In this document: positions 1 through 17,461 of the stretch, one piece after another | Position numbering within the stretch: the first letter of the stretch is position 1 | Layout of the letters: the number at the start of each line of letters is the position of its first letter | Assembly (NCBI RefSeq): GCF_040371085.1 | Contig: NZ_JAMBMT010000001.1 | Location: forward strand, 620,001-684,000 | Direction of reading: 5' to 3' | Length of the DNA: 64,000 nucleotides | From: Psychrobacter sp. AH5 | GTDB lineage: Bacteria > Pseudomonadota > Gammaproteobacteria > Pseudomonadales > Moraxellaceae | Position numbers and translations under genes: made by a program | Notes under the pieces: model-generated | Databases searched by the model: none | Told to the model about the DNA's origin: nothing | Seen by the model: the letters and a program-made list of their open reading frames with translations, nothing else

Positions 1-873
1 GGCTTGCTGCACAAGCGCAATTTGACTCGGATGAATTACGGTTTTTCCGACTAATCCTAAGCTGACATCACGCGTTAATTCTTGCATAAATAGCGTTGGC
101 TGATCTAAATACTCAAACACTGGCGCTGATAGATAAAAGCCATGCGGCACAAAGCAGCCAAGCAATTGATAAGCAAGGGTGCCGATAGGAGTATCATAGA
201 TGATACTGTTTTTGGGGCGACGCAGACGCAGCGCGGCAAACAAGTCATTACCACCGATACGCAAGGCAAAAACAGGCTGACTAAAAGCTTCTTTAAAGCC
301 GATAGCGAGCTCTTGGTTATGATGCGGATCAAATAAGGCGGCAGTCTCAAGCGTTGGCATCAATAGCTGCTCGGAGCTGAGGTTTTGACAAGACATACGC
401 CAATTAGACAAACTACACATATCGACTTTAGGCATGACAAAGCCGTCAAGCAATTCTATGTTTTGGTAGTGAGCCAGCTTTTGCAGCATCATCGGATTAC
501 GAGGCCGCACAAAAACCAATGGCCTTGTCGGCCGATTTTGCTGATTGTTTTCAGGGGCTGATGGAGTGTTAATACTATCACTATGCGCCGCCCAAGTATT
601 TAAAAGCTCTTGCAATCTCTCTAAGGCTAATTCGACATCGTTATGGCTGACCGCATCCTCAACACAGATAATAATACTGTTGATAGTTGGCAATTTATCG
701 CGCTTAATAACTTGCCAAATATCCTGCCGAGTCGCTGGCATATAAAGGCTTGCGCCTAATTGATAAGGATGATGATTGTACGTTTTGAGCAGCGCATGAC
801 GCTCAGTAATAAGATGCTCGTAGGACTGAGTATAATTATAAAGCTCTGACTCGTTGTTGGGGTTATCTGGCAT
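1..873 (-). CDS. HpcH/HpaI aldolase / citrate lyase beta (CitE)-like protein, 3' end outside window
   Basis: The minus strand reads open from an ATG at 873 to the left edge of the window (291 codons, no stop), so the C-terminus is missing. The product resembles CitE-type TIM-barrel C-C lyases: an early strand ending IIICVEDAV, then VFVRPRN, GFVMPKVD, ALRIGGNDLFAALRLRRP and GKTVIHPSQI, the last being typical of the family's C-terminal half. CitE-like lyases are a known component of the biosynthetic module of ter clusters. It lies 84 bp downstream of the StiP-like gene on the same strand and is probably its last or next-to-last operon member. No clear Shine-Dalgarno precedes the ATG. The substrate is unknown. 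Confidence 0.85.
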   Translation of the reverse strand, partial: MPDNPNNESELYNYTQSYEHLITERHALLKTYNHHPYQLGASLYMPATRQDIWQVIKRDKLPTINSIIICVEDAVSHNDVELALERLQELLNTWAAHSDSINTPSAPENNQQNRPTRPLVFVRPRNPMMLQKLAHYQNIELLDGFVMPKVDMCSLSNWRMSCQNLSSEQLLMPTLETAALFDPHHNQELAIGFKEAFSQPVFALRIGGNDLFAALRLRRPKNSIIYDTPIGTLAYQLLGCFVPHGFYLSAPVFEYLDQPTLFMQELTRDVSLGLVGKTVIHPSQIALVQQA

Positions 874-957
874 AGTTAGTATCATATATTGTGATAAATG
901 AGGGGAGCGGTTCGCTAGTATGACTAATCTGTTTATTGGTATATCTAGACAATAAAG

Positions 958-2121
958 CTATTTGACACGCTGCTTAATGAGAGTAATCGCTTGATAGGGC
1001 AGTATTTTAGCACCTAACACGTTAATTTCAATCTCTCTATCGGCGCATAAATGTCGCAGTAGTTCAGTATCCGGATGCGCTGCGCTCGCTAATAAAATAC
1101 GTTCAGGATCGCGGCGCAGTATAGCGCGGGTCGCCTCAGCGATAGTTGGCTTGATACGATTGTGATTATTGATATTATAATCTGTGGCTAGCTTATCAAT
1201 GATGCTTTGCGTACGATATCTAGGCTGCCTGAAGGTAGCTAATATTATGGGCGATAGGGTTAATTGCTGCCTTGCCGAATCAATTTGCTCAATAAAAGCT
1301 AAGCTGTGATCACTATCTACTAAGTTATCATAAAAAATAGCGCGATGTAGACCTGATTGAGGCTCAGTATAAAGCGAGCGTGATATTAGCCCAGATACCG
1401 TACTATTTAATAAGCCTGAAGGTATCAGCCAATCCTCCTCGCTAGCTGCAAGCCACGCTACGCCAGCTGGATCAGCGAGCGTTAATAGTGGTATCACCCC
1501 TTGACCTTGATGGAAGATATTGCCAAAGTTAGGATGGCTTTTATCATTGAAGACTTCAAGACTAGTTGCTAACTGCTGATAAATAGCGCCTTTACCCGTC
1601 CAGCCATCGACAAAGACCATTGGACTATCAGGATGATTGTCTAATATGAATTGCAGTGCAGCTGAGTCAACACCACGATCGCGAATGATACTGATACCAT
1701 AGTGCTTGCTAGGTAGTGAATAGCTGCTATTACTATCTGCCAAAGCTCGTTGCAATAATACGCCAATAGGCAATCCTGCCCGTACTAAGCTGACTATAAT
1801 TAGAGGATTTTTATCATCGACAGAGCTTTGGAAAATATTATGTAAAGTATAAGCTATATTGGCAATGTCACTAGCCATGCGCTGTTTGCCTTGAGTTAGA
1901 GCTTGCAAATAAAGCTGCTCATGCCTAGCCGTCGGCGCTTGCTCTAAAGTGAGCATCTCGGAATAATGACGCTGACCACTTTGAATCAGCGCTTCTTTTT
2001 CACTCACAGGCACATCCGCTACCGCCTGTTTGTCGACGATATCTAGTAGTACGGTCACATCGCTAGCCAAATAGCTGCCTGAGCCATATTTATTTAAATC
2101 TTGTAATCTAGCTCTTGTCAT
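958..2121 (-). CDS. StiP-family (PRTase-like) ter-cluster protein
   Basis: A 387-aa protein of the StiP family, often annotated 'cysteine protease StiP' and also described as a divergent phosphoribosyltransferase of ter clusters. What I see: a SLVRAGLPIG segment near residue 111 and a PRPP-loop-like VFVDGWTGKGA near 169-179, both typical of a phosphoribosyltransferase fold. I see no obvious protease triad, so the PRTase reading seems more plausible to me. It is 28 bp downstream of the HAD gene and upstream of the CitE-like gene, so it is probably co-transcribed. Inferred role: a step in synthesis of the proposed nucleoside-like ter metabolite. Its ribosome binding site is weak. Confidence 0.85.
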   Translation of the reverse strand: MTRARLQDLNKYGSGSYLASDVTVLLDIVDKQAVADVPVSEKEALIQSGQRHYSEMLTLEQAPTARHEQLYLQALTQGKQRMASDIANIAYTLHNIFQSSVDDKNPLIIVSLVRAGLPIGVLLQRALADSNSSYSLPSKHYGISIIRDRGVDSAALQFILDNHPDSPMVFVDGWTGKGAIYQQLATSLEVFNDKSHPNFGNIFHQGQGVIPLLTLADPAGVAWLAASEEDWLIPSGLLNSTVSGLISRSLYTEPQSGLHRAIFYDNLVDSDHSLAFIEQIDSARQQLTLSPIILATFRQPRYRTQSIIDKLATDYNINNHNRIKPTIAEATRAILRRDPERILLASAAHPDTELLRHLCADREIEINVLGAKILPYQAITLIKQRVK

Positions 2122-2149
2122 AATATCTGTATCGCTATGTTTTTATAGG

Positions 2150-2971
2150 CTATTTAGCAGCAAGCTGTTCGTGCAGCTGACCATGATTGGGCATACCATA
2201 CCAGTCTAATAGTTGCAAAAAAGGCAGATCGGCTAAGCTGTCACCAAAGCCAAAGCTTGGGCGCTCATTATCTAAATGCTGCGCTAATAAAAACTGTACC
2301 GCGTGACGCTTATGTACAACATGAGGCAAAATAGCTAAATTATTAGCGTTTACATGCACATAAAAATATTTATCAAAATCGCGTACAAGTTTAGGAAGCT
2401 GACTAGCCAATTCGATTAGGGCTTGATGATCTTTTTTCGCATGTTTAATCGCTAGATAAATAACTAACTTTTCACTGACGCTACCGTTAATAAAATCATC
2501 GCTATGGGCAGTAAATCTCAGCTGGCTGTTATCATTGCTGCTATGCTTGGCAAATAACTGACTAAGCTGACTAAGTTTATCCTGTAATGGCGCAAGCTCG
2601 TTATACATACGCTGCTGCCAAGTCTGTAATAGTTCGCCATTTTGGTTGAGGATTATCGCGCCATGGGTTAGTACCTGCCAGCTGGCAAAAGGCAGCTTAA
2701 CTCGCTTAATCTCACTACGGTCGCGAGCGGTAACGACTATCAACTCCGTGCTAGTCAATAACCAATTAAAAAAGATAGCTTGCCGAGTGGTCATAAAGCT
2801 AAGCGGCTCGCCTTGTTTATTGACACTGGCACACACCAAGCTATTTGCTTTAGCAGTAGGTAAATCCCAAGCCTCTATTTTGCGCTGCGTTTGAAATAGC
2901 GTATCGTCTAGATCCATTAGGGCATAGGGTTTGATAATATCAGAATTAACTTGGAAGAATGGGGCGGTCAT
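2150..2971 (-). CDS. HAD-superfamily hydrolase (ter-associated)
   Basis: A 273-aa HAD phosphatase. Motif I is DLDDT at residues 20-24 (nucleophile D20, acid D22). Motif IV is FGFGDSLADL at about 240-249, supplying Mg-binding aspartates. A Thr in VVTARD near residue 81 could serve as motif II. A cap domain lies between. HAD phosphatases accompany the PRTase, StiP, CitE and ATP-grasp genes in ter loci. Here the gene lies between the PRTase-TRSP gene (with a palindromic element in the 156-bp gap) and the StiP gene. A weak GGA precedes the ATG at 2971. Predicted to dephosphorylate an intermediate; the substrate is unknown. Confidence 0.85.
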   Translation of the reverse strand: MTAPFFQVNSDIIKPYALMDLDDTLFQTQRKIEAWDLPTAKANSLVCASVNKQGEPLSFMTTRQAIFFNWLLTSTELIVVTARDRSEIKRVKLPFASWQVLTHGAIILNQNGELLQTWQQRMYNELAPLQDKLSQLSQLFAKHSSNDNSQLRFTAHSDDFINGSVSEKLVIYLAIKHAKKDHQALIELASQLPKLVRDFDKYFYVHVNANNLAILPHVVHKRHAVQFLLAQHLDNERPSFGFGDSLADLPFLQLLDWYGMPNHGQLHEQLAAK

Positions 2972-2996
2972 ATATGGTCCACAATTAAAAGCTCTT

Positions 2997-3113
2997 GTAG
3001 GGTGCGGTTAGTTTTATTAAATTCTTATAAAGAATGAAGATAAAACGTCACCCACCGCTTAGTAAGTTTATAACGCTTAGATGATGGGTGACGCTGCGCT
3101 AACCTCACCCTAC
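2997..3113. repeat. Palindromic intergenic element (nested inverted repeats)
   Basis: The outer arms are 2997-3011 (GTAGGGTGCGGTTAG) and 3099-3113 (CTAACCTCACCCTAC), complementary except at one position. Inner arms at 3046-3054 (CGTCACCCA) and 3085-3093 (TGGGTGACG) are perfectly complementary, and a small hairpin sits at 3021-3035 (ATTCTT/AAGAAT). It lies between two genes of the ter metabolite operon, so its transcript would be strongly folded there. It resembles the GTAGGGTG-type REP/MITE repeats found scattered in many bacterial genomes. No other copy is in this window. Confidence 0.7.
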
Positions 3114-3127
3114 GGTAAATTAAAAGC

Positions 3128-4441
3128 TCAGCTGTCAACCCCTACTACTAACACATTATCCAAGTCCTGCCACATGGTATCCACACTATCGGCAGCGGTT
3201 TCTACACACAAGACAATCAAATCCCAATCCTTTGGCTCAACATTATAAACAAAGTTAGTCATGCCAAGGCCGTAATTATCATGGAAGCTTAGCATGGTAT
3301 TAATCGCGCCACCAAGCGCAATGGGCGAGCGAGTTAAGGCGCTAAATTTGACAGTAGTATCAGCATCATTACTAGCGTCATTACTAGCATCGTTATTAGC
3401 GCCGTTTGCATTAGTTTTAGATGTTAAAGTTGCAGATTCAAGCCATTCGGCTAACAAAAAAGGCAACCACACAAACTCATTACTCCCCAAGACCAAAATT
3501 CGCTTCGGCAATTGATTTTTGTCAAAAGTGGCTTGTCCGCTAAAATCTGCAAAAGCTTGCTGAAAATTATTTAGATAATCAGTAAAGCCCTCTGTACTAT
3601 CTAGCGTCGGAAAGCGTCCCCAATTACCAGTATCTCCCAAAGTCTGGCTACCAGCCTCGGTAGTATCTACCGACGGCATAACGATAGGCTGAGGATTGGG
3701 AGCGTCAGTCCATTGCCAAGCGCCGGAGAGTAGATGATGGCGCTGAAATTCTATATCTGGCAAGCGCGAAGATATAGTATCGTCAGCATTGTCAGTATGG
3801 TCCTTAGCTAATGACCAATCGACCAATGTAGTGAGATGTACTTGCTCTAATTGCTGTAGTCCTGCCTCGCGCAAAGCCGTCACTACGTTGACACAAGTAT
3901 TACCCGTTGACGCTTCGTCATCGACCATGATTAGCGTTTTGCTAGCAAGTAGCTGTTTTTGTAAGCTTTGCTCTTTACTTTGATAAATTAAATGCTGACT
4001 GGCATGACTATGATCTTCACTAAAGGTAGTAAATAAAGTCTCATGGTGGTTTTTGCTATGCTGAGCATGACGAGTAGAATTAAGCAGCAAGGCTTTTGAG
4101 TAACGCGTTTGTAGCGCTTGATGTACGCCCGCCGATAGTCCAACCGCGGTTTCTGCCATACCTATAACTAGTATCGGCTCAGGTAAATTATCAGGAATTA
4201 AATTCGCCAAATCAGTAAAAGCCCCGCGCATAGTGCTAGGCGCCACTGGAATATGACGACCCAAAACTTTGGAGACGAATAAAAAAGCGCGTTTAGGGTT
4301 AATGCGCTGAGCAAAACCTAGTAGGTCCTTAAGCTGATAGCTTTTATCATGAGTGCTTTTAGTATTAGTATTGGTCTGATAGGTTAAATCAAGCTTGCCA
4401 CGGGGTAGAGCAATGGTAGTGCTTTGTGACTGGTTTGGCAT
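3128..4441 (-). CDS. Phosphoribosyltransferase with C-terminal TRSP domain (ter-associated)
   Basis: A 437-aa protein. The N-terminal half is a PRTase (PRTase_2 type) with the PRPP-binding loop VDDEASTGNT at residues 173-182 and a preceding VIGMAETAVG strand-turn. The C-terminal part from about residue 280 matches the TRSP domain that follows PRTase_2 in ter clusters (GNWGRFPTLDST start). An Asn/Asp/Ala-rich linker with repeated NDAS units lies near residues 348-362 and is probably a recent low-complexity expansion. It is the first gene of the minus-strand ter metabolite operon; an SD-like AAGGAAG precedes the ATG at 4441. Predicted to form or break an N-glycosidic bond using PRPP; the substrate is unknown. 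Confidence 0.88.
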   Translation of the reverse strand: MPNQSQSTTIALPRGKLDLTYQTNTNTKSTHDKSYQLKDLLGFAQRINPKRAFLFVSKVLGRHIPVAPSTMRGAFTDLANLIPDNLPEPILVIGMAETAVGLSAGVHQALQTRYSKALLLNSTRHAQHSKNHHETLFTTFSEDHSHASQHLIYQSKEQSLQKQLLASKTLIMVDDEASTGNTCVNVVTALREAGLQQLEQVHLTTLVDWSLAKDHTDNADDTISSRLPDIEFQRHHLLSGAWQWTDAPNPQPIVMPSVDTTEAGSQTLGDTGNWGRFPTLDSTEGFTDYLNNFQQAFADFSGQATFDKNQLPKRILVLGSNEFVWLPFLLAEWLESATLTSKTNANGANNDASNDASNDADTTVKFSALTRSPIALGGAINTMLSFHDNYGLGMTNFVYNVEPKDWDLIVLCVETAADSVDTMWQDLDNVLVVGVDS

Positions 4442-4861
4442 TCATCTTCCTTAAGGGGACTCTTTTGAGATATCTTTCAAATAAATTATGTAAACTGCTT
4501 ATATAGTAGAGGTAGGCGGTGATGATAGCTGAAATTTTACGCTCTATCTCACACTTTATGCCTGCCTATTTAACGCTGTTTAGTCAATTATACTACGTCC
4601 TCATCCTTCACCATCAAATTTTAACTATTACTCGCGTGCTCTAGATATTATTTATTTCATATATTGTATCTTTAATATTTTGCTATAAGTAGTTTGTTTA
4701 TGAGCGATAAGCTTTGATAGTCGTTGTTTTTATTGTAAAAATTGCTTGATATATTGTCACACTGCTATCAGAATTGCGGGTTGACCCAGCTTTAGCTTTT
4801 CGTCTCATTTTGAGTCCATTTTAACTTTGATAAATCGACTCCTTTTTATAGAGTAGATTTT
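4442..4861. other. Intergenic region between divergent PRTase and sotB-like genes
   Basis: This 420-bp AT-rich divergent spacer should carry promoters for both the ter metabolite operon (minus) and the MFS gene (plus). A TTGATA (about 4828) with a TATAGA 15 bp later is a weak candidate for the plus direction. I see no open frame, RNA gene or strong hairpin. Confidence 0.5.
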
Positions 4862-6049
4862 ATGGAACATGCTATTGAGACCGATGAAGTCTCTCGTCAA
4901 AGCAAATACTTTCAAGTGATATTGATGGGCGTTAGCGCTTTTGTGGTCAATACTACAGAGTTCGTTCCTGTGGCACTGCTAAGTGATATTGCGCAAGACT
5001 TCTCTATTACTAGCGCCGAGACGGGTTGGATGTTGACTCTTTACGCATGGGTAGTTGCCGCTATGTCGCTGCCGCTTATGTTGCTGACTAGTCGCCTCGA
5101 GCGTAAGCGCTTGCTACTAGCTTTATTTGCCGTATTTATCGCCAGCCACGTTTTATCAGTATTTGCTTGGAGCTTTCAAGTGCTGCTCATTAGCCGCGTT
5201 GGGATTGCTTTGTCGCATGCGATATTTTGGGCCATCACCGCTGCCATAGCTTTGCGAGTAGCGCCTGCAGGCAAAAAAGCGTTGGCATTAAGTATACTAG
5301 CGACAGGAACGTCGTTAGCGCTAGTACTCGGCGTGCCTATAGGACGCATAGTGGGGCAGTGGTTTGGTTGGCGGATGACTTTTGCCGGTATTGGCGGGAT
5401 TGCTTTTATTATTTTCATCTTACAGATGAAGCTTTTACCCGATCTGCCTAGTATGTTTGATGGCTCTTTTAATAAGCTGCCAGAATTACTCAAAAATCCG
5501 CTATTGATCTGCTTGTATTTATTCTGCTTTGTGGTGTTTACGGCTGACTACGCCGCTTATTCGTATATCGAACCTTTTATGAATAAGATTGGCACTATTA
5601 GTGAAAACCAAGTCACTTTTATCCTGCTCCTATTTGGCGCGGCTGGACTCATCGGTAGTTATATCTTTAGCCGCTGGAACGAGAGATCGACTACCAAGCT
5701 AATGCTGGTGTCAATCCTGTTAATTTTATTGCCGATGATGCTGATGTTATGGGCAGTAAGCTCGATATGGCTACTTAGTATAGTAACTGTGGTTTGGGGC
5801 ACAGCGATGATACTACTGATGCTAACGATTCAGTCCAAAGTTATCGAGATCGATGTCAATGCTCAAGACATGGTAATGGCTATGTTCTCAGGAATTATCA
5901 ATTTAGGAATAGGTATGGGCGCCTTGCTCGGCGGCTACGCTGTAACCTATATCTCGCTATCAAGTGTCGGCTTCGTGGGCGGCGCTATTGCCGCTTTGGC
6001 ATTATTGATAATGATATATATGGTTAGACGCTTTCCTGAGCTAGGGTAA
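4862..6049 (+). CDS. sotB: SotB-like MFS efflux transporter (DHA1, sugar/drug efflux type)
   Basis: A 395-aa inner-membrane protein with about 12 hydrophobic segments. The N-terminal TTEFVPVALLSDIA motif in the first segment, the SRLERKRLL loop between segments 2 and 3, and the LGVPIGRIVGQ motif are characteristic of the SotB/AraJ branch of MFS exporters. The ATG at 4862 is preceded by AGAG. The gene lies alone on the plus strand between two ter-metabolite loci transcribed on minus. It could be an unrelated sugar exporter or could export the ter-linked metabolite; the sequence does not decide this. Confidence 0.8.
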   Translation: MEHAIETDEVSRQSKYFQVILMGVSAFVVNTTEFVPVALLSDIAQDFSITSAETGWMLTLYAWVVAAMSLPLMLLTSRLERKRLLLALFAVFIASHVLSVFAWSFQVLLISRVGIALSHAIFWAITAAIALRVAPAGKKALALSILATGTSLALVLGVPIGRIVGQWFGWRMTFAGIGGIAFIIFILQMKLLPDLPSMFDGSFNKLPELLKNPLLICLYLFCFVVFTADYAAYSYIEPFMNKIGTISENQVTFILLLFGAAGLIGSYIFSRWNERSTTKLMLVSILLILLPMMLMLWAVSSIWLLSIVTVVWGTAMILLMLTIQSKVIEIDVNAQDMVMAMFSGIINLGIGMGALLGGYAVTYISLSSVGFVGGAIAALALLIMIYMVRRFPELG

Positions 6050-6112
6050 AAATAGATAATAAGCTAACTATACTTAATACGGCCGCAGATTTGATTATAG
6101 CTGCCAAAGCTA

Positions 6113-7246
6113 CTATTCAAAACCGTTAGCTTCATCCACCTCAATCTTTACACTTGTCATAATAGAGCGTACCTGACAAGGAGTAATTTGCTTGACGACA
6201 TCAGCCAATTTGGGCTTGTCGGTCAAACCGAGCCAATAACTAAAGCCTACTTTTGTGAGATCGACGCCGCTGTGAGTAGTGTAGCCAATACCGCCCGAAG
6301 GACGACTGTTAATCTCCAATACTCGGTGCTGGCCTTGCTCATCTTCTTTGGTCTGTACGCTAACGATACCATCACACTGAAAAGCTTTGATTAGCGCGAT
6401 AACTACTTCCATCACCGACTCATCATAGCCAATATGCTGAACCTTGCCAGTTTTATAACGAGTGATAGCGGCCAGTACTTCACCAGCTTCACAAACCACG
6501 TCGATAGAGTACTCACGCCCCGATAAATAAGGCATGAGTAGCATCGGAATAGGCTGCTCTTTTACCAGTTGGCTATCGCGATAAGCAGCGATAAATTGAG
6601 TAGTATTGATTTTTTTATCTTCAGTAAAGTATAAGTGCTCAAAGCTGTCGTACTGATCTTCTGTTTTTTTATCGGCATCGAGTCGCCAAAATCCTTGTGC
6701 GAATATACCAGTTACTGGCTTTACGCAGAGGGGCTGATGACTATGCTTAGCCAATAGTGCCTCTAGCTCATCGATAGTATCAAAACGCCAAGCGGTCGCG
6801 ACTGGAATGTTATGAGCCTGACACTGCTGCATAAAAGCAAATTTATCATCGATCGTCTCAAGAGCAACTACGCTAGTGGCGCCAGTTAATAGCCGAATAC
6901 CTGCCTCGGTAAAGGCCGCTCTATGCGCCTCATAATCTATACTATTACGGCCAGTGAGTAATACTTTGACGTTATTTTGTTTGGCCTGTTTTAGCACATA
7001 CTGCCAACGCTCAACTAAGGGCTGAGCCTCAGCTTCGCTAGCTGACTGATAAGGCTCAAGATAAACCTTATCAGCAAATTCAAATATCTCAGGACGCTGG
7101 TGACGATGAGAGCCAATGATAGTAAATGGCGAGGTAGCTTGAGTTTTTAGCCATTGTAAGCTCTCTAACATATCGCGCTGGCTAGATTGACCCTCAGCAA
7201 GCCAAACGGCTTTTGTTTTCTCGTTGTTGCTTATGTCGTTAGTCAT
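6113..7246 (-). CDS. ATP-grasp domain protein (ter-associated ligase)
   Basis: A 377-aa ATP-grasp ligase. I chose the ATG at 7246 over an in-frame GTG at 7258 because GGAGAG (7251-7256) lies at good spacing from the ATG and overlaps the GTG. Visible family features are the central LCVKPVTGIFAQGF strand and loop, LSGREYSIDVVCEAGE, and the C-terminal metal/ATP site VLEINSRPSGGIGY. ATP-grasp enzymes join a carboxylate to an amine or thiol via an acyl phosphate. They occur with the CitE, PRTase, HAD and StiP genes in ter clusters, where they are proposed to modify a nucleoside-like compound. It is divergent from terA and convergent with the MFS gene. Confidence 0.85.
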   Translation of the reverse strand: MTNDISNNEKTKAVWLAEGQSSQRDMLESLQWLKTQATSPFTIIGSHRHQRPEIFEFADKVYLEPYQSASEAEAQPLVERWQYVLKQAKQNNVKVLLTGRNSIDYEAHRAAFTEAGIRLLTGATSVVALETIDDKFAFMQQCQAHNIPVATAWRFDTIDELEALLAKHSHQPLCVKPVTGIFAQGFWRLDADKKTEDQYDSFEHLYFTEDKKINTTQFIAAYRDSQLVKEQPIPMLLMPYLSGREYSIDVVCEAGEVLAAITRYKTGKVQHIGYDESVMEVVIALIKAFQCDGIVSVQTKEDEQGQHRVLEINSRPSGGIGYTTHSGVDLTKVGFSYWLGLTDKPKLADVVKQITPCQVRSIMTSVKIEVDEANGFE

Positions 7247-7415
7247 TACTCTCTCCACAATGCTCTCAAGACCCTAAGATATTCATCGCCATTATATACA
7301 AATGCGCTAGTATATAAATGTTTATAGCGATTTAATAATAAAAAGTGGCGCTATTAGTGCTTTTAATCCGCTGGTATGGATAATAACTTTGGACTAAAAG
7401 TCGTCATAAAAATAG

Positions 7416-7427
7416 ATGAATATTCAT
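7416..7427. promoter_or_regulatory. 12-bp perfect palindrome in the divergent ATP-grasp/terA spacer
   Basis: ATGAATATTCAT is a perfect palindrome 74 bp upstream of terA, within the 254-bp divergent spacer. It is a candidate operator for a dimeric regulator. An AT-rich palindrome of this length can also arise by chance, so support is weak. Confidence 0.3.
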
Positions 7428-7500
7428 GCTACTATACGGCTATAACTAGGATGATTGCTAAAACATAAAGACAAACTATAAAGACAAAAAGGACGAGATA

Positions 7501-8769
7501 ATGAGTCAAACCTCACCGCAAAAATTAGTTGCTGGTGCTAATGCGCCACTGCCTAATGATAATATTAGCATTCGTATTTTGAGCCAAAACGCTATCGACT
7601 GCGCCGCTTACCGCTTAACCAGTCAAGGAAAAGTACGTGGTGATGGTGATATGATTTTTTATGGTCAGACACGTAGCGATGATGGTAGCGTCAGCTTTCG
7701 CGGGCATGATAGCGATGGGTTTTTTGATATTAATTTGCCAGCGCAGGCAGGGGAGATTGAGAAAATAGCGCTAGCATTCTCAAGCGAGCAGACCCTTGCG
7801 CAGCTTGGCGATGTCGATATTCAAGTCATGCAAGGCAGTCAAGTACTTATTAGCTGTCAGCTTAGTAGCGCCGGACGTAGTGAGAAGGCTATCATTCTGG
7901 CAGAGTGCTATCGTCGGCAGGGCAGCTGGAAGTTTAGATTTATTGCCCAAGGTTTTGAGGGCGGGCTTAAGCCGCTATCTGAGCACTTTGGTGTTGAGAT
8001 TAGCGATGATACGCCAGCTCAAAATCAGTCAGCAAGCATCAACACGCAAAAGCCCATCAATACGCAAAAGGCTAGCAGTACGAATCAAAGCAGCGCTACT
8101 CAAAGTAGTCCGCCGCCAATTCCAGCTAGTCTCTCGGTCAATCTTAGTAAGATTACTTTAACCAAAAACCAATCCACTATTAATCTGACCAAGCGCGATG
8201 ACTTTGGCAAAATATCAGTCAATCTAAACTGGAATCAGCGGCCTAATGTCGATAAAGCCGCGCCCAAAAAAGGACTGCTTGGTGACTTATTTAAGCAGCG
8301 TGGTTCAGGCGGTATTGATCTTGATGTGGGAGCCATGGTACATCTAAAAAACGGCGAGAAAACGCTGATTCAAGCGCTAGGTAATCGCTTTGGTAGTTTA
8401 AACTCATCGCCTTTTGTATTGCTGCGCGCTGATGATAGAACAGGGCAGGTGAGCGATGGCGAATGGCTTGATATCAACGGGCAGCAGTGGTCGCAGATTC
8501 AAGAGGTGTTTATCTTTGCTTTTATCTATGAGGGCGTACCTAATTGGGCGCAGACCGATGGCGTGGTCACTATCCATGTACCCGGGCAGCCGCCGATCGA
8601 GACTCGGCTTACCGAAGGCGCAGGTAACGCGCCTATGTGCGCTATTGCGCGGCTGGTCAATCAGCAAGGTAGTATTAATGTTGAGCGTATTAACCAGTAT
8701 TTTAATGGTCACAAAGAGATGGATAACGCCTTTAATTGGGGCTTTAGTTGGAAGCGGGGTAGCAAATAG
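7501..8769 (+). CDS. terA: TerA-like protein with two TerD-fold domains
   Basis: A 422-aa cytoplasmic protein with two TerD-like calcium-binding beta domains. Domain 1 (about residues 15-170) contains GKVRGDGDMIFYGQ and ends WKFRFIAQGFEGGLKPLSEH. A Ser/Gln/Thr-rich linker spans about 175-215. Domain 2 (about 220-420) contains VNLNWNQ, a KKGLLGDLF insertion before IDLDVGAM, and the TerA-typical tail FNGHKEMDNAFNWGFSWK. Tandem architecture and tail identify TerA. Ter proteins act in resistance to tellurite and other envelope or DNA stresses. A GGACGAG sequence precedes the ATG. It is transcribed alone and ends at a strong terminator facing the minus-strand ter genes. Confidence 0.87.
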   Translation: MSQTSPQKLVAGANAPLPNDNISIRILSQNAIDCAAYRLTSQGKVRGDGDMIFYGQTRSDDGSVSFRGHDSDGFFDINLPAQAGEIEKIALAFSSEQTLAQLGDVDIQVMQGSQVLISCQLSSAGRSEKAIILAECYRRQGSWKFRFIAQGFEGGLKPLSEHFGVEISDDTPAQNQSASINTQKPINTQKASSTNQSSATQSSPPPIPASLSVNLSKITLTKNQSTINLTKRDDFGKISVNLNWNQRPNVDKAAPKKGLLGDLFKQRGSGGIDLDVGAMVHLKNGEKTLIQALGNRFGSLNSSPFVLLRADDRTGQVSDGEWLDINGQQWSQIQEVFIFAFIYEGVPNWAQTDGVVTIHVPGQPPIETRLTEGAGNAPMCAIARLVNQQGSINVERINQYFNGHKEMDNAFNWGFSWKRGSK

Positions 8770-8793
8770 ACGCTTTGTCGAATGCTACAATGC

Positions 8794-8826
8794 AAACAGC
8801 CTAGCTATCATAGCTAGGCTGTTTTT
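8794..8826. terminator. Intrinsic terminator after terA
   Basis: Perfect 14-bp stem (8794-8807 / 8811-8824) with a 3-nt loop and a T run on the plus side. It lies between convergent terA and the TerZ/TerX-type gene and probably serves terA, possibly both. Confidence 0.9.
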
Positions 8827-8845
8827 AAGGGTTTAATACTAAATT

Positions 8846-9454
8846 TTACGCATGCGGAGCGATAGCGGGCATCAAGTCATGGAAAGTTCGACCAGAGGCG
8901 GTTTCACCAATAGCATGCATCTTCCATTCATCGTTATGACGATAGACTTTTGCCATCACCATAGCGGTATGACCCCCTTGCGCCGATAAGTTATAACGTG
9001 CCACCTCTGAGTTGTTTTGTGCATTAACGATACGGCAAAAAGCATTCTCTACTGTCTCAAAAGTCTGACCGGTAAAGCTGTTTACGGTAAATACTAAAGA
9101 GGTCACATTAGCTGGAATTTTTGATAGATCGACATTGATCACTTCATCATCGCCATCTCCAGCGCCCGTACGATTATCACCGGTATGCAAAATGCTGCCG
9201 TCTTTTGATTGCAATTGACCAAACCAAATAGCATCGACCGCTTGCTTATTACTATCGAACATAATGCATGAGGCATCTAGATCAATAGTGTCGCCACCGC
9301 TACCACCGCCAAATAATTTACCCAAAAATCCGCCTTTTTGTGCTTGCGGGCTTTGGGCGACATCCCAACCTAGGCCAAGTTTAACCTGAGTCAGAGTGCC
9401 GCCTGCTTCTTTGCTTAAGGATATTTTCTGTCCCTTTTGTAGACTAACTGCCAT
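8846..9454 (-). CDS. TerD-domain protein, TerZ/TerX type
   Basis: A 202-aa single TerD-domain protein. It starts MAVSLQKGQKISL and has the conserved TerD calcium-site block [15 protein letters not shown]. Its tail, KMHAIGETASGRTFHDLMP, differs from TerD/TerE, which end KFRAVGQG, and places it in the TerZ/TerX branch. An insertion QKGGFLGKLFGGGSGG before IDLDASC matches the position and style of the insertion in domain 2 of TerA. I leave the symbol open because TerZ and TerX cannot be separated with confidence by eye. It is the third gene of a minus-strand series TerE, AIM24, TerZ/X; AAGGAT precedes the ATG. Confidence 0.87.
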   Translation of the reverse strand: MAVSLQKGQKISLSKEAGGTLTQVKLGLGWDVAQSPQAQKGGFLGKLFGGGSGGDTIDLDASCIMFDSNKQAVDAIWFGQLQSKDGSILHTGDNRTGAGDGDDEVINVDLSKIPANVTSLVFTVNSFTGQTFETVENAFCRIVNAQNNSEVARYNLSAQGGHTAMVMAKVYRHNDEWKMHAIGETASGRTFHDLMPAIAPHA

Positions 9455-9586
9455 AATATAATCCTTATCGTAGTTGAGAGTGTAATAGTTATAAATAATC
9501 TAAAAGTTTAATTTTTATATTAAAATATGACTAATAATTTAGGTTTACTGTTTTTCGACTATAAAATATTTTTTATAAAGAGTCTT

Positions 9587-10339
9587 TTATAAAATATTAT
9601 CCAAAAAACCACCACTTCCGCCGCGGCCACCTGAATTACTGCCTAATATACTTTGCAGCCAGCCTTGATAGCTATCCCGGTTACGCGAACAAATAATCAC
9701 TTTACCGCTGCCTGAGAAGTTAAGCACCATACCTTCGCCGCTAGTCACTGAGTTGATAATATTACTCATAATGCCTTTTTTCTTACTAGTAGAGACTGAT
9801 AATTTATAATCAAGATTGGAGTCCCAGCAGACCACATGACCGTTATCGATGACCACATCTTTACCAGGCTCAACATCAATTTCAAATAAGGAGCCAAAGC
9901 CTGAGACGACTACCTGACCTTTGCCTTGAGTCTGCATCACCATAAAGCCGCCGGTATCACCAAATACCGCGCCGCCTAGGTTACGCTGAATCTTCGCTCT
10001 AATATCGACATCTTTTTGGGCTGCGACAAAAGCGCCATCGCTTAAGGTGTATTGCTGAGCGCCTACATCAAGTATTTGCATATCGCCATCGAGGGTAGGG
10101 GCAAGTAGACAATCGCCTTCACCGCCCGTCGCTTCGATCTGCTGCTGAAATAGCGACTCATCATTAGCAAAGCGGCGCATTAAGGATTGCATCAGGCCAC
10201 CTTGCAGTTTGCCTTTTAGCTCAAGGTTTGACTCCATCATTACCATGGCATTGGCTTCACAATAGATAGAATCGCCTTTTTTGAGATTGCAGTGCAAAAA
10301 AGGTTCGATAGTGCCGATTAAACTAAAAGTCGCTGCCAT
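9587..10339 (-). CDS. AIM24-family (TIGR00266-type) protein
   Basis: A 250-aa protein of the AIM24/TIGR00266 family, a beta-rich fold of unknown biochemical role. Features include CEANAMVMME, GDCLLAPTLDGDMQ, the repeated glycine-rich FGDTGGFMVMQTQGKG and VVSGFGSLFEI strands, and DNGHVVCWDSNL. The C-terminus is Gly/Ser-rich and ends in the hydrophobic FLDNIL. AIM24 proteins are frequent ter-cluster neighbours. It lies between the TerE-type and TerZ-type genes on the same strand (166 and 132 bp gaps), and AAGGA precedes its ATG. It may form a membrane-associated assembly with Ter proteins (inference). Confidence 0.85.
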   Translation of the reverse strand: MAATFSLIGTIEPFLHCNLKKGDSIYCEANAMVMMESNLELKGKLQGGLMQSLMRRFANDESLFQQQIEATGGEGDCLLAPTLDGDMQILDVGAQQYTLSDGAFVAAQKDVDIRAKIQRNLGGAVFGDTGGFMVMQTQGKGQVVVSGFGSLFEIDVEPGKDVVIDNGHVVCWDSNLDYKLSVSTSKKKGIMSNIINSVTSGEGMVLNFSGSGKVIICSRNRDSYQGWLQSILGSNSGGRGGSGGFLDNIL

Positions 10340-10505
10340 AATAAATAAATCCTTACATCGATATTTTGATTAATAGTCTTACTTTTAATGGGAGTAGTGA
10401 TAAGTAGGGAAAAACGCTTGATGGATAAAATTAAAGCTAGCAAACACGGTGAATAATCGCACTTGATAGCTTTAATAAATGATGCTTTTGACTGGTTATT
10501 TAGGC

Positions 10506-11081
10506 TTAGACATTGACACCATAAGAAGAGGCTAATGGACCTAGACCACCGCTGAATCCTTGACCTACTGCACGGAATTTCCAGTCGCCACTGTGACGAT
10601 ATAGCTCACCAAAGATCATAGCGGTCTCAGTGCTACCGTCTTCTGATAAGTCGTAACGAGCGATTTCGCTGTTGCCATTATCATTGACAATACGGATGTA
10701 AGCGTCGCCTACTTGACCAAAGTTTTGATTACGTGCCTGACCTTCATAAATAATGGCACAAACCGCTACTTTGCTAACATCCGCTGGAAGGCTAGCAAGA
10801 TTGATTTTGATTTTTTCATCATCGCCGTCACCTTCGCCCGTACGGTTATCACCGGTGTGCTCAACTGCGCCGTTGTCAGACTTTAAATTGTTAAAGAAAA
10901 TAAAGTCTTGATCGTTACGTACTTTACCGCCTTCATTAACCAAAAAAGCAATAGCATCCAAATCAAACTCTTGGCCGTCAGTAGCACGAGGATCCCAACC
11001 AAGACCAACAGTAATGTTAGTCAAGCCTGGAGCTTCTTTTGATAAGTTTACGTTGCCGCCTTTCGTTAAGCTAATAGCCAT
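10506..11081 (-). CDS. terE: Tellurium resistance protein TerE-like (TerD domain)
   Basis: A 191-aa single TerD-domain protein. It starts [16 protein letters not shown] and contains [31 protein letters not shown] (calcium-site acidic loop), NQNFGQV and [18 protein letters not shown], ending YGVNV. The [20 protein letters not shown] ending resembles TerE; the paralogue at 13494 ends like TerD. The ATG at 11081 has AAAGGA at 11088-11093. It heads a minus-strand series TerE, AIM24, TerZ/X and is divergent from yhhQ. Confidence 0.88.
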
Positions 11082-11327
11082 AAAATTGTCCTTTGATTTA
11101 TTGATAAATGATTAGTTAGGATAATTGCTAACCGTAGACTATGTCCTGTCTATCGTTAAGTTTTACTATACTAAGCAGCTAAGCACTAAGCAAGTCGTAT
11201 TTTGTGGCTAACTGTTTAGAGATGTGTTTTAAAAGTATCTGTAATGGCCTCTACAAAAACTGGCTACAAAAAAGTGAATATAGCTATAATGTCAGATCTG
11301 CTATCTAAGGTTTTTATCCAAACCATT

Positions 11328-11357
11328 TTGGCTTTTGTAAGTGTTTTGCTTTATAAT
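11328..11357 (+). promoter_or_regulatory. Sigma-70-type promoter for yhhQ
   Basis: A -35 box TTGGCT (11328-11333), an 18-bp spacer and a consensus -10 TATAAT (11352-11357). The predicted start near 11364 falls immediately before the preQ1 aptamer, giving a leader of about 42 nt. Confidence 0.7.
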
Positions 11358-11365
11358 ATGCGCGC

Positions 11366-11399
11366 TCAGGTTCCCTCAACCCTGATTTAAAAAAAGGAC
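11366..11399 (+). promoter_or_regulatory. preQ1-I riboswitch (translational type)
   Basis: The RNA folds with P1 arms UCAGG (11366-11370) and CCUGA (11381-11385), a 10-nt loop ending CAAC, and a UUUAAAAAAAGGAC tail. Length (34 nt), loop size, loop ending in AAC and A-rich tail running into GG match class I preQ1 aptamers such as that of Thermoanaerobacter tengcongensis. The AAGGA of the tail is also the Shine-Dalgarno for yhhQ (ATG at 11406), so ligand-stabilised pseudoknot formation would hide the ribosome binding site. Linkage to a queuosine-precursor transporter supports the call. Confidence 0.88.
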
Positions 11400-11405
11400 T
11401 CTTCT

Positions 11406-12065
11406 ATGAGCATTAGTACTACCTTGATTACACCTATCCCATCCATTCGTTATAGCCGCGCTTTATTTTGGCTGGCGAGTCTACATATTTTTATTATCGC
11501 TATCAGTAACTACTTGGTGCAAATACCCGTAGCAGTATTTGGCTTTATCACCACTTGGGGCTCCATAACCTTCCCCTTTATCTTCTTAATTACTGATTTG
11601 ACCGTGCGTATCTTTGGTCAGCAGTTAGCTAGAAGAATCATATTTTTTGCGATGTTGCCAGCGCTGGCAATCTCTTATTACTTCTCAGTGGTGTTTGCAA
11701 AAGGGCAGTTTGTCGGTCACGAGCATCTGCTGGATTTTAATTTATTTGTCTTTCGTATTGTCCTAGCGAGCTTCAGCGCTTATGTCATTGGCCAGCTATT
11801 AGATATTCAGGTATTTAATAAACTGCGTCAGCTCAAAACTTGGTGGATTGCCCCCTTAGCCTCAACGCTTATCGGTAATCTGGTGGATAGTTTTTGCTTT
11901 TTTGCCATTGCCTTTTACAAAAGCCCAGATGCTTTTATGGCAGCAAACTGGATAGAGATTGGCAGCGTAGATTACCTGTTTAAGATGATAATGGGCGTGT
12001 TGATTTTCTTACCGCTGTATGGGGTGATATTAGCAAAACTGCAAAAGATGCTAGCAGGGAAGTAG
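11406..12065 (+). CDS. yhhQ: YhhQ-family 7-cyano-7-deazaguanine (preQ0/preQ1) transporter
   Basis: A 219-aa inner-membrane protein with about six hydrophobic segments, of usual YhhQ (VUT) length. Diagnostic stretches are ITFPFIFLITDLTVRIFGQ, IVLASFSAYVIGQLLDI, and STLIGNLVDSFCFFAIAF with GNLVDS. It imports queuosine precursors for the tRNA modification pathway. It sits directly behind a preQ1-I riboswitch, so it is expected to be shut down when preQ1 is plentiful. It interrupts the ter locus between terE and the DUF475 gene, both on the opposite strand. queC, about 15 kb away, completes a synthesis-plus-salvage picture. Confidence 0.9.
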   Translation: MSISTTLITPIPSIRYSRALFWLASLHIFIIAISNYLVQIPVAVFGFITTWGSITFPFIFLITDLTVRIFGQQLARRIIFFAMLPALAISYYFSVVFAKGQFVGHEHLLDFNLFVFRIVLASFSAYVIGQLLDIQVFNKLRQLKTWWIAPLASTLIGNLVDSFCFFAIAFYKSPDAFMAANWIEIGSVDYLFKMIMGVLIFLPLYGVILAKLQKMLAGK

Positions 12066-12112
12066 AGCGTATATATTAGATTACTTGTCCTTCTAAAATA
12101 ATAGACATAAAA

Positions 12113-12144
12113 AAGGGCTATAACGAATCATCGTTATAGCCCTT
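12113..12144. terminator. Bidirectional terminator between yhhQ and DUF475 gene
   Basis: Perfect 14-bp stem (12113-12126 / 12131-12144) with an ATCA loop, flanked by an A run on the left and T's in the stem base on the right. It separates two convergent genes. Confidence 0.85.
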
Positions 12145-12166
12145 TACTGTTTGTCATAACCTCAAA

Positions 12167-13267
12167 CTAATCTAGTTGCTTGGTTTTGAGCTGTGTTTCT
12201 GAGTCAGGATTGGCTAGGGCTTCTGCTTTACGATACTTTAATGAACCCCACAAAGCCAAACCAATAAAGGCAATACCGATAAGACCGGTGATCAGCTCTG
12301 GTACATGGAACTTAACCGAGAGCAGCATAATAACCGCTAGCGCACCGATAGCATAATGCGCGCCGTGTTCAAGGTAGATGAACTCATCAAGCGTGCCTTT
12401 ATCGACTAAGAAGATCGTCATTGAACGCACGAACATCGCACCGATAGCTAGACCTAACATAATGACGATAACATCATTGGTAATCGCGAATGCACCGATA
12501 ACGCCATCGAAACTAAAGGAGGCATCGAGCACTTCTAAATATAAGAAACCGATGATACCGCCGCGCAAAATGGCGCTAGTAACCTCACCGGTGCTATTGC
12601 CGTCTTCATCTAGCTCTTCTTCCAAATCGCCCTCTAACAAGCCTGAGATGACTTGCACGCCAAGATACACTAAGATACCCCAAACGCCAGCGATAAGGAC
12701 TGCTGCCGCTTGCGCTTCATTAGCAAAGGAGACGGCGATCATCAATACAATCAGTGCTATAAAGACGCTCATAGCATCGACTTTGCCAAATTTAGCCAAA
12801 CGGCTCTCAAGCCAATGAAACCAGTGAACGTCTTTATCGTCAAAGACAAAATTTAAGAATACGAGTAATAAGAAAATACCACCAAATGCTGAGATCTCAG
12901 CGTGATGGGCTAATAGCTTGGCTGAGTACTCTGTGGGGTTATTAAGCGCTAAGCGGATAACTTCCATCATGCCAAGATCGGCGGTGACCGCAACAATGAC
13001 AATCGGAAATACGAGGCGCATCCCGAACACGGCGATTAAGATACCAACCGTTAAGAAGATCATCTTCCAAAAGGCGTCCCAACGCTTTAGTACTGAGGCA
13101 TTGACTACCGCATTATCAAAGGATAATGAGATCTCCATTACCGCCAAAATAGCGGTGATAGATAGCGTGGATAACATGCCACTGATCCCACTATGTGAAT
13201 ATCCCCACCAAGCAGCTACGGCCAAAGCAATAGCGGTAAAGATAAAGTCTAAATAAAAATGTCTCAT
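12167..13267 (-). CDS. DUF475 (TerC-like) integral membrane protein
   Basis: A 366-aa membrane protein with roughly nine hydrophobic segments. Duplicated acidic membrane motifs, MEISLSFDNAVV (about residues 44-55) and VLDASFSFDGVIGAF in the second half, resemble the paired metal-site motifs of TerC/LysE-superfamily proteins. A charged EGDLEEELDEDGN cytoplasmic loop separates the halves. DUF475 proteins are recurrent ter-cluster partners. As no classical terC is in this window, this protein may fill the membrane-anchor or metal-transport role (inference). It is 226 bp downstream of terD, from which it is separated by a terminator. Confidence 0.87.
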   Translation of the reverse strand: MRHFYLDFIFTAIALAVAAWWGYSHSGISGMLSTLSITAILAVMEISLSFDNAVVNASVLKRWDAFWKMIFLTVGILIAVFGMRLVFPIVIVAVTADLGMMEVIRLALNNPTEYSAKLLAHHAEISAFGGIFLLLVFLNFVFDDKDVHWFHWLESRLAKFGKVDAMSVFIALIVLMIAVSFANEAQAAAVLIAGVWGILVYLGVQVISGLLEGDLEEELDEDGNSTGEVTSAILRGGIIGFLYLEVLDASFSFDGVIGAFAITNDVIVIMLGLAIGAMFVRSMTIFLVDKGTLDEFIYLEHGAHYAIGALAVIMLLSVKFHVPELITGLIGIAFIGLALWGSLKYRKAEALANPDSETQLKTKQLD

Positions 13268-13357
13268 GACATGTCCTGTCTAATGGCATAAAGTAATGCT
13301 GAGTTAATTTGGTCTAATAAAGATAAATGCAAACATTGTAAAAAACTAATACATGCT

Positions 13358-13387
13358 CAAAAAAGCAGCTATAAGTAGCTGCCTTTT
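13358..13387 (-). terminator. Intrinsic terminator of terD
   Basis: On minus: stem GCAGCTA/TAGCTGC (13365-13371 / 13376-13382) with a 4-nt loop followed by six T's. It lies 106 bp past the terD stop and upstream of the DUF475 gene, making DUF475 a separate unit. Confidence 0.8.
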
Positions 13388-13493
13388 TGGGGACGAAAAT
13401 TAACAGAAACATAAAGCATTTTTAATCGTTTAGCTATATAAAACTGTAGTATTTTGCAACTAATTGTACTTCGCCACTAATGATACTTTGCGA

Positions 13494-14069
13494 TTAGATA
13501 TCAACACCATATTGATGACACATCGCTTGTAGGCCACCTGAGTAGCCTTGACCTACCGCCCGAAACTTCCACTCATTGTTATGGCGATAGACCTCACCGA
13601 ACACCATAGCAGTCTCGACTGAATAATCCTCTGCCAGATCAAAGCGTACGACTTCGGTACCAGACTCTTCGTTAACGACGCGAATAAAAGCGTTAGCCAC
13701 TTGACCGAAGTTTTGGCTACGAGCAGCAGCATCATGAATAGTGACAGTGACGACGATTTTATCGACATCGCTTGGCACTTGGCTTAGATTGACTTTAATT
13801 ACTTCATCATCGCCGTCCCCTTCGCCAGTACGGTTATCACCGGTGTGTTCAACTGCGCCATTATCAGATTTTAGCTGATTATAGAAGATAAAATCGTGAT
13901 CGCCGCGCACTTTGCCGGCGTTACTTAATAAAAAAACACTAGCATCCAAATCAAACTCAGCACCAGAGGTGGCGCGCTCATCCCAGCCTAGACCGATAAG
14001 CAGTTTATTTAAGTTTGGGTCCGTTTTAGTTAGCGATAAATTACCGCCTTTATTTAATGATAAAGCCAT
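13494..14069 (-). CDS. terD: Tellurium resistance protein TerD
   Basis: A 191-aa single TerD-domain protein. I start it at the ATG at 14069 (AAGGAT at good spacing, family start [13 protein letters not shown]) rather than the in-frame codon at 14117, which adds 16 non-homologous residues. Motifs are [63 protein letters not shown] and [14 protein letters not shown]. The ending [11 protein letters not shown] is TerD-like. It is the upstream-most minus-strand ter gene of the window and is transcribed alone to its own terminator. Confidence 0.9.
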
Positions 14070-14179
14070 GGATAGATCCTTTTTATTAGGTTGATTTTTA
14101 TAGTTAAAAGTTTGCAATCAATAGAGTGTAAATGATAACTGTAATTGCTGCTAAATGATGTTCTATCATAACAACAAAA

Positions 14180-14209
14180 AATGACCCAATCAAAGCGGAT
14201 CGGGTCATT
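14180..14209 (-). terminator. Intrinsic terminator of rlmKL
   Basis: Arms AATGACCC (14180-14187) and GGGTCATT (14202-14209); reading on minus, the stem is followed by a TTTTTTGTTGT tail. It lies just beyond the rlmKL stop. Confidence 0.8.
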
Positions 14210-14247
14210 GTTGTAAAGCTTATTGTTGCTTTATTATTAAATAAAAA

Positions 14248-16557: not shown

Positions 16558-16777
16558 ACGGATACCTGTTGCAAAAAGAGCGAATCAGAGAATAAAAGAG
16601 GTTTTATTTAGCCGGCAATTTTAGCACAATTCAGTTGGCTAAGGTTTAAAGCCATAGGGTTAAATAAGTTAGCCGCCCAAAAGTAACGAAGCTAACAGTA
16701 ATATTAAGTAAATTTTAAGAAAGTATTGCCAAATACTTGTTAATTTGTCTCTATTAATTCTAAATAAGAGGGATTAT

Positions 16778-16795
16778 ATGCTTTATACTAAATAA
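16778..16795 (+). other. Five-codon minicistron abutting the response-regulator start
   Basis: ATG CTT TAT ACT AAA TAA (MLYTK) has AGAGGGA (16767-16773) at ideal spacing, and its stop is directly followed by the ATG of the regulator at 16796. The regulator lacks its own close Shine-Dalgarno. Translation of the minicistron could therefore bring ribosomes to the regulator start. The arrangement is visible; the function is inference. Confidence 0.4.
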
Positions 16796-17422
16796 ATGAA
16801 GACGCTAACCACATTAATCGTAGCTGATGACCATCCTATATTTTTGGAAGGCTTAATCATGCTGTTTGAGCGCTTAGAGTGTTTTGAGTTATTGGCTAGC
16901 GCGACGGATGGCGATCAAGCATTAGCCATGATTGAGCAATATCAGCCTAATATTGCGCTTATTGATTTATCGATGACAGGCGTCTCGATAGAGCACATGA
17001 TTGAGCACCTTAAACAAAACAGCTTTGATACTAAATTGATCGTGCTGACAATGCTAAAAGATAGCTATAGAGCACAGCAGCTGCTTAGTTTAGGATTAGC
17101 AGGTTATGTATTAAAAGACATGGCATTTGAGGATTTGATTACCTCTATTGAACAAGTGCTTTTGAATAAAAGCTTTATATCACCGTCCTTAATTTGTGAA
17201 GAGGTATCCCTAGTAGTTATTCCCTGCCTGACGGAGCGAGAGCTTGAAGTGCTAACCTGTGTTGCAAGCGGTGATAGCAATAAGCAAATCGCTCGTAAAT
17301 TAGGAATCTCTCAGCGTACTGTCTGCTTTCATATGACCAATTGTTTTATAAAAACAGACGCTAGCAATCGTACAGAAGCTATCGTCAAAGCCGTAAGTTA
17401 TGGCTTGATAGATATAGTTTGA
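16796..17422 (+). CDS. NarL/FixJ-type response regulator
   Basis: A 208-aa regulator. The receiver domain has the acidic pair D11/D12, phospho-acceptor D57 (IALIDLS), T85 and K107 (VLKDM). The C-terminal LuxR-type helix-turn-helix has LTERELEVLTCVASGDSNKQIARKL and SQRTVCFHM. It regulates transcription after phosphorylation by a HisKA_3-type kinase; the obvious partner is the kinase encoded convergently 39 bp away. No good Shine-Dalgarno is positioned for the ATG, but a minicistron stop touches it. Targets are unknown; the adjacent secreted-protein genes are candidates. Confidence 0.9.
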   Translation: MKTLTTLIVADDHPIFLEGLIMLFERLECFELLASATDGDQALAMIEQYQPNIALIDLSMTGVSIEHMIEHLKQNSFDTKLIVLTMLKDSYRAQQLLSLGLAGYVLKDMAFEDLITSIEQVLLNKSFISPSLICEEVSLVVIPCLTERELEVLTCVASGDSNKQIARKLGISQRTVCFHMTNCFIKTDASNRTEAIVKAVSYGLIDIV

Positions 17423-17461
17423 TAGTTAGATAGCTAACAGCATTTATTTAATGATAAGTTA

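Follow-up and report, generated by a model that had tools for sequence, protein, structure and literature searches.

A chromosomal ter locus of Psychrobacter with a linked metabolite module, a DUF475 protein in the likely place of TerC and no terB

Introduction

Ter-dependent stress systems, as reportedly described by Anantharaman, Iyer and Aravind in 2012, combine a metabolite module with TerD and TerC proteins, and the same combination is present in the ter locus of Psychrobacter sp. AH5 analyzed here. The locus occupies positions 1 to 14,069 of a stretch of 64,000 nucleotides (the window), which corresponds to positions 620001-684000 of a 2.97 Mb contig; the genome of 3.24 Mb is listed as 100% complete and consists of 7 contigs. 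Our comparison indicates that this locus probably represents the known Ter stress-response system on a Psychrobacter chromosome, in the form containing AIM24 and the metabolite module, and that its operon-like ancestor was split into several units and lost terB.

A ter cluster of Psychrobacter glacincola BNF20 was published in 2018; it has no terB, terA is reversed and AIM24 is located inside (PMC5822837; this and all papers below are cited for parts of their text). Individual promoters were proposed for this cluster, a similar context was found in other Psychrobacter, P. arcticus 273-4 among them, and the ter genes of the genus were assigned to group I of Anantharaman, Iyer and Aravind (2012). 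A tellurite minimal inhibitory concentration of 2.3 mM was reported for one Psychrobacter with such a terB-less cluster, which need not be the cause (PMC5822837). For the Pseudomonas citronellolis cluster in E. coli, terB is dispensable and terC and terD are the minimal tellurite resistance pair, terCD protecting weakly and terACD well (PMC8779313). Bacillus TerC proteins have manganese efflux activity and load manganese into secreted enzymes (PMC10550928), Klebsiella terC contributes to zinc, manganese and tellurite resistance (PMC12054061), and a connection between envelope stress and the ter operon of Klebsiella has been described (PMC9933665).

Results

Gene content of the AH5 locus

All genes named in an initial annotation of this DNA, namely five Ter-linked enzyme genes, four TerD-family genes, AIM24 and DUF475, are present and were confirmed by Pfam or NCBIfam profile matches above the cut-off. 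The features of the locus are the following:

1..885, minus strand: CitE-like C-C bond lyase (C-C_Bond_Lyase PF15617, E 4.5e-98)
958..2121, minus strand: StiP, in the model a type-I phosphoribosyltransferase (PRTase) fold followed by a C-terminal L7Ae/PELOTA-like domain (PF11202, E 6.6e-82, and PELOTA_1)
2150..2971, minus strand: HAD-IIB type phosphatase (Pfam Hydrolase_3, E 8.7e-06)
3128..4441, minus strand: PRTase_2-TRSP phosphoribosyltransferase, called PRT below (Pfam PRTase_2, E 1.7e-53; TRSP, E 5.1e-16)
4862..6049, plus strand: MFS transporter, a variable insertion between PRT and ATP-grasp (NCBIfam PRK03545, above cut-off)
6113..7258, minus strand: ATP-grasp ligase of the Ter module (Pfam ATPgrasp_Ter, E 6.7e-35)
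7501..8769, plus strand: TerA, TerD family (Pfam TerD, E 2.7e-27)
8846..9454, minus strand: TerZ/X-like TerD-family protein (Pfam TerD, E 8.9e-57)
9587..10339, minus strand: AIM24/TIGR00266 protein (Pfam, E 2.6e-55; TIGR00266 above cut-off)
10506..11081, minus strand: TerE-like TerD-family protein (Pfam TerD, E 2.8e-85)
11406..12065, plus strand: YhhQ-type transporter (Vut_1), a variable insertion (Pfam, E 7.6e-35)
12112..12145, no strand: terminator-like hairpin with a T tail between the converging YhhQ and DUF475 genes (consensus match only; 14 such sites found against 12.0 expected)
12167..13267, minus strand: DUF475 protein, the TerC-family member of the genome (DUF475, E 1.4e-112; TerC PF03741, E 3.3e-14)
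13494..14069, minus strand: TerD (Pfam TerD PF02342, E 1.4e-87; likely ATG start at 14069 after AGGA, read from the sequence)

The four TerD-family (PF02342) genes of the locus all score above the cut-off. The window edge truncates the CitE-like gene at its 3' end; the whole gene encodes 358 amino acids and extends 192 bases to the left of position 1 (L006:13809-14885).

Strand changes alone result in seven blocks (CitE-StiP-HAD-PRT; MFS; ATP-grasp; TerA; TerZ-AIM24-TerE; YhhQ; DUF475-TerD), and thus the initial count of at least six transcription units is fair. The locus had also been called compact, which is a relative term; some related loci are tighter. When a threshold of 30% of the loci was applied, seven palindromes were detected upstream of units, and only one of them, TTGCT-N5-AGCAA, is common to two units (upstream of TerE in 57% and of TerD in 33%). 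As a shared regulator site in AH5 this palindrome was rejected, with no match in the locus and three matches in the window against 5.3 expected. A stretch of 24 bases upstream of terD has no second copy in the window.

Gene order in Psychrobacter and on plasmids

The PRT protein is 97% identical to that of one Psychrobacter metagenome assembly and 64-82% identical to those of other Psychrobacter. Relatives were sought with patterns derived from the PRT of the window, which retrieve close relatives only, and the 41 found all belong to Psychrobacter. In profile searches across the class, 9 of 369 genomes had PRTase_2 above the cut-off, and at the phylum level 12 of 398 genomes had StiP, the AH5 genome being included in both.

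Of 20 Psychrobacter stretches, 19 agree in gene order and strands over the part that each one covers; CitE, DUF475 or TerD lie beyond the ends of some. The common order is CitE-StiP-HAD-PRT-ATPgrasp on one strand, TerA reversed, and then TerZ-AIM24-TerE-DUF475-TerD; the 20th stretch comes from a StiP-negative genome and contains DUF475 alone. The larger set of 61 Psychrobacter loci, which includes the window, contains five duplicated PRT sequences (56 distinct). Here, an MFS gene is located between PRT and ATP-grasp in 12 of the 58 loci holding both genes, window included, and YhhQ was found in 13 of the 61, not all of which reach that point. More frequent between PRT and ATP-grasp is a gene for a TerD-trypsin fusion (34/58 loci with both genes; 32/53 after manual removal of duplicates), a fusion seen by Pfam in L138 and L139. 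This gene is missing from the window, where positions 4442-6112 contain only the MFS gene. The match to the TerD-trypsin gene is partial in L097, which possibly carries a decayed copy, and in L057 and L061 a TerD-family match between PRT and ATP-grasp does not reach the trypsin part, possibly representing another gene type or a divergent one. One metagenome bin (L067 and L068) contains two copies of the PRT region (97% and 82% identity) and may be a mixed bin.

The BNF20 cluster is like the window in having terA, terZ, terE, terC and terD, terA on the opposite strand and a TIGR00266 gene inside (PMC5822837). The module enzymes identified in the window, in contrast, were not found by a term search of the main text of that paper; the window furthermore adds to the BNF20 account that the terC gene is of the DUF475 type.

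On plasmid pPNAP04 of Polaromonas naphthalenivorans the genes are located on one strand in the order DUF475-TerD-TerD-(AIM24 remnant)-TerD-ATPgrasp-PRT-HAD-StiP-CitE-TerA, where AIM24 is an unannotated remnant in two pieces over 31%. The Psychrobacter order is the same except for TerA, which is moved and reversed, the order of DUF475 and TerD, and the insertions. Plasmid 1 of Aromatoleum aromaticum EbN1 has nearly the same order of TerD paralogs, AIM24, ATP-grasp, PRT, HAD, StiP, CitE and TerA; DUF475 heads the Polaromonas row, and Aromatoleum has a classical-type TerC and terB in a second block. The Aromatoleum AIM24 is 60% identical, and the distance to terB, which belongs to another operon of the same plasmid, is about 10 kb. 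On both plasmids, unlike in Psychrobacter, the module and the TerD genes share one strand, and TerY, PP2C and kinase genes are located nearby.

The same five enzymes together with TerD-family genes occur on a Pseudomonas fulva plasmid (L182), in the gammaproteobacterial genomes L170-L172 and in the Klebsiella terZABCDEF-type cluster (PMC8115787). The stretches L182 and L170-L172 have no AIM24 match, and L182 contains a trypsin-like gene. Clusters of the terZABCDEF type differ from the Psychrobacter locus by the presence of terB and a classical-type terC and by having the ter genes in one row. Taken together, the gene orders suggest that the Psychrobacter locus may correspond to a compact operon like that of the betaproteobacterial plasmids which was opened up and is now without terB.

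Absence of terB and of a classical terC

The TerB profile (PF05099) gave zero matches across the whole AH5 genome, in a search that was positive for 4 of 14 control genomes, among them E. coli. The sole TerC-family match (PF03741) genome-wide is the DUF475 protein itself. Both absences had been claimed initially for the locus, and the genome-wide searches agree with them. The genes are not hidden beyond the window edge either: the adjoining 14 kb left of position 1 contain no terB or terC, and among the open reading frames of at least 90 amino acids located there, no ter gene was recognized from the translations. TerF was searched locally; in the window, L006 and L007, queries for VWA, TerY, PP2C and kinase proteins gave only the TerD-domain matches of one query.

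StiP is encoded in 55 of 60 Psychrobacter genomes, and TerB was found in one of the 60, where the match is an 805 amino acid TerB_N/TerB/TerB_C protein and not an operon terB. With tblastn no TerB was detected in any of the 61 Psychrobacter loci, some of which are stretches covering only part of the locus. Outside Psychrobacter we compared 18 module-bearing genomes. TerB is present in 17 of them, the single genome without it being 58% complete, and in 12 it lies on the contig of the module within 20 kb. Since TerB occurs in 17 of the 18 other module-bearing genomes sampled, the loss of terB in Psychrobacter looks lineage-specific, as judged from these sequences.

A possible reason for this loss would be that AIM24 functionally replaces TerB, the Psychrobacter cluster having gained AIM24 and then being able to lose terB. 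Consistent with that, AIM24 is located inside the cluster in all 19 StiP-bearing Psychrobacter stretches, where terB is absent, and was found in only 3 of the 18 outside genomes, each time on a contig other than that of the module. However, AIM24 and terB coexist on Aromatoleum plasmid 1, which argues against AIM24 simply replacing TerB, and the absence of terB rests on one genus and is explained equally well by a single loss. We therefore consider a replacement quite improbable and retain a lineage-specific loss of terB.

DUF475 as a member of the TerC family

In an alignment of eight sequences, residues E45, D51, N52, E245, D248 and D254 of the DUF475 protein are invariant and shared with classical TerC; these presumably form the metal site. 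In four of the module-bearing genomes outside Psychrobacter, DUF475-type genes directly adjoin terB (L139, L141, L142 and L153), the position in which other outside genomes have a classical-type TerC (L157 and L169-L172). These observations support the initial suggestion that DUF475 may stand in for TerC, and sequence comparison thus places it as the probable occupant of the terC position in the Psychrobacter locus. Comparison of the DUF475 profile with the PDB gave one match (E 0.9).

Among the matches listed, a TerC-family protein was found in 60/60 Psychrobacter genomes and one of the classical type (E < 1e-40) in 12/60. No TerD-family gene was present near the classical-type TerC in the three surroundings fetched (L150-L152). 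Four StiP-negative Psychrobacter genomes have kept DUF475 (L066, L146:11060-12145, L147:10078-11163 and L148:9745-10830), with no other ter gene in the stretch. In L146-L148, DUF475 is located near a carbamoyl-phosphate-synthase-like gene, as read from translations.

A riboswitch upstream of DUF475 was not detected, since positions 1-18000 contain no Rfam match at the gathering score. Up to E 1, the same region yields two weak matches to one small RNA family at 8790-8826 and none to yybP-ykoY.

StiP as a predicted phosphoribosyltransferase-fold protein

NCBI and Pfam name StiP a cysteine protease, and according to these names the module would contain a proteolytic step. No cysteine is invariant in 47 StiP sequences, however, and the single cysteine of the window StiP, residue 359, is located outside the StiP domain. 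The AlphaFold2 model of StiP (predicted local distance difference test, pLDDT, 88.2; predicted template modelling score 0.90) has a type-I PRTase fold; it matches HPRT and PyrR with Z up to 11.2, and the Foldseek TM-scores are modest. The list of fold matches contains no protease fold, which does not prove that the folds differ. A protease function of StiP is, in our view, very improbable.

In the model, the stretch VFVDGWTGKG lies between a strand (168-171) and a helix (179-191), and D172, W174, T175, K177 and G178 are invariant in the 47 sequences. It contains only one acid, versus the two adjacent acids in the phosphoribosyl pyrophosphate (PRPP)-binding loop of the HPRT consensus. A comparison of StiP with the PRTase_2 profile was not significant (probability 1.3%). 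Searched against the PDB, the StiP sequence gave one chance-level match, and the StiP profile matched L7Ae-type proteins on the C-terminus, besides one weak unrelated protein. StiP thus appears from its model to be a PRTase-fold protein with an L7Ae-like domain, and the name cysteine protease appears to be a misnomer; the StiP-like protein reported initially is indeed present, but is more plausibly the second protein of the module with a PRTase fold. One homologue (P0023) contains an internal repeat of about 30 residues.

StiP might even be an RNA-binding PRTase and one of a pair of PRTase-fold proteins that would make or sense the Ter metabolite, in Psychrobacter without TerB. On an RNA, such a protein would move or swap a base or a ribosyl group, or else it would be a PyrR-like RNA-bound product sensor. 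We regard this as a long shot.

The other enzymes have conserved motifs as well. In PRT, D175, E176, G180 and T182 of the VDDE-STG-T loop and T370-P373 of TRSP are invariant in nine sequences; its model (mean pLDDT 63.3) is too poor for use. Invariant are also D20, D22, T24, K176, G243 and D248 of the HAD phosphatase (eight sequences), the stretches KT.IHP.Q and IGGNDL of the CitE-like enzyme (seven sequences) and the LEIN-R-SGG residues of the ATP-grasp ligase (five sequences). Ten locus proteins, CitE not included, had no match to the PADLOC families (2023 library), a library that cannot exclude a defence role. A literature search, which did not cover subscription papers, found nothing on StiP function or the module product.

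Neighbouring genes and further TerD-family genes

To the left of the CitE-like gene, translations indicate an alpha/beta hydrolase, an enoyl-CoA hydratase-like gene, aconitase and lipA. Just past the locus on the other side, a response regulator gene and a converging sensor-kinase-like gene are located at window positions 16796-19273 (likewise read from translations). A fifth, divergent TerD-family gene adjoins a WYL-domain regulator about 0.4 Mb away (L007:10083-10733, minus strand, corresponding to G000:C1:1028083-1028733). In L145, PRT, StiP and HAD are strongly diverged (25-28% identical), and neither a CitE nor a TerD-family match was found in the 20 kb stretch.

Discussion

The AH5 locus is a genus-typical member of a known system and has mostly been described already. 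Its initial identification as a Ter-linked metabolite module stands; the implied unusualness does not, the arrangement being typical for the genus and largely published (PMC5822837). New here are the apparently lineage-specific absence of terB, the DUF475-type gene at the position of terC and the predicted PRTase fold of StiP, and, in addition, the likeness in order to a compact betaproteobacterial plasmid operon, here broken up, and the missing TerD-trypsin gene.

The gene content fits a metal-stress system coupled to the synthesis of a nucleoside-like compound; this coupling, the product and the order of the steps are our proposal. DUF475, as the TerC-family protein, would sit in the membrane and either export metal or serve as a metal chaperone, with the TerD-family proteins and AIM24 acting together with it on the cytoplasmic side. 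Upon metal or envelope stress, the enzyme set may make a small modified nucleoside. PRT would attach a phosphoribosyl group, and StiP would catalyze a second PRTase-type step or sense the product via its RNA-binding-type domain. HAD would remove a phosphate, the CitE-like enzyme would make or break a C-C bond, and ATP-grasp would join an acid to an amine.

Alternatively, the enzymes and the Ter proteins could be neighbours by descent only. Psychrobacter would then use the Ter proteins to handle metals and the enzymes in a nucleoside pathway of their own, and the division into separate units would be accounted for. The retention of DUF475 without the rest of the cluster in four StiP-negative genomes fits with this, as do the sufficiency of terZ-F for tellurite resistance (PMC8115787) and the outside stretches, listed below, that lack a TerD-family gene. 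On the other hand, 13 of the 18 outside genomes have a TerD-family gene in the fetched stretch, one of the 13 solely in the form of a TerD-trypsin fusion, TerD-family genes lie beside the module on the P. fulva, Aromatoleum and Polaromonas plasmids, and the gene order is held across Psychrobacter despite the broken operons. Neighbourhood by descent only is thus unlikely, although less so than a replacement of TerB by AIM24.

Several observations weigh against a single Ter stress-response system comprising ter genes and enzymes. In five of the 18 outside stretches (L140, L144, L145, L173 and L178), two of which are contigs of 5 and 10 kb, the module is present but a TerD-family gene is not, and the 18 kb fetched around the TerB gene of G661 contain no other ter gene. 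DUF475 persists alone in Psychrobacter without the cluster, and therefore its job need not be Ter-specific. The only palindrome common to two units is absent from the AH5 locus. Klebsiella terZ-F alone makes E. coli MG1655 tellurite resistant (PMC8115787), and therefore the enzymes are not needed for this resistance. In older work, which PMC8115787 and PMC5822837 cite, terB was one of the genes required, contrary to the P. citronellolis result, and a Klebsiella study argues that TerC is not itself a zinc or manganese efflux transporter (PMC12054061). A Psychrobacter member of the known Ter system, split into units and deprived of terB, is nevertheless the reading that we strongly favour.

The Ter-linked enzymes matter beyond Psychrobacter: 2568 of 72556 plasmid records encode StiP, with the ter linkage looked at in only a few of them. 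If StiP has a PRTase fold and is not a cysteine protease, other biochemical assays are called for. In Psychrobacter, an environmental genus, the locus is chromosomal, single-copy and free of terB, and most of the enzyme genes form a unit of their own, so that the enzymes could be deleted while the ter genes stay intact.

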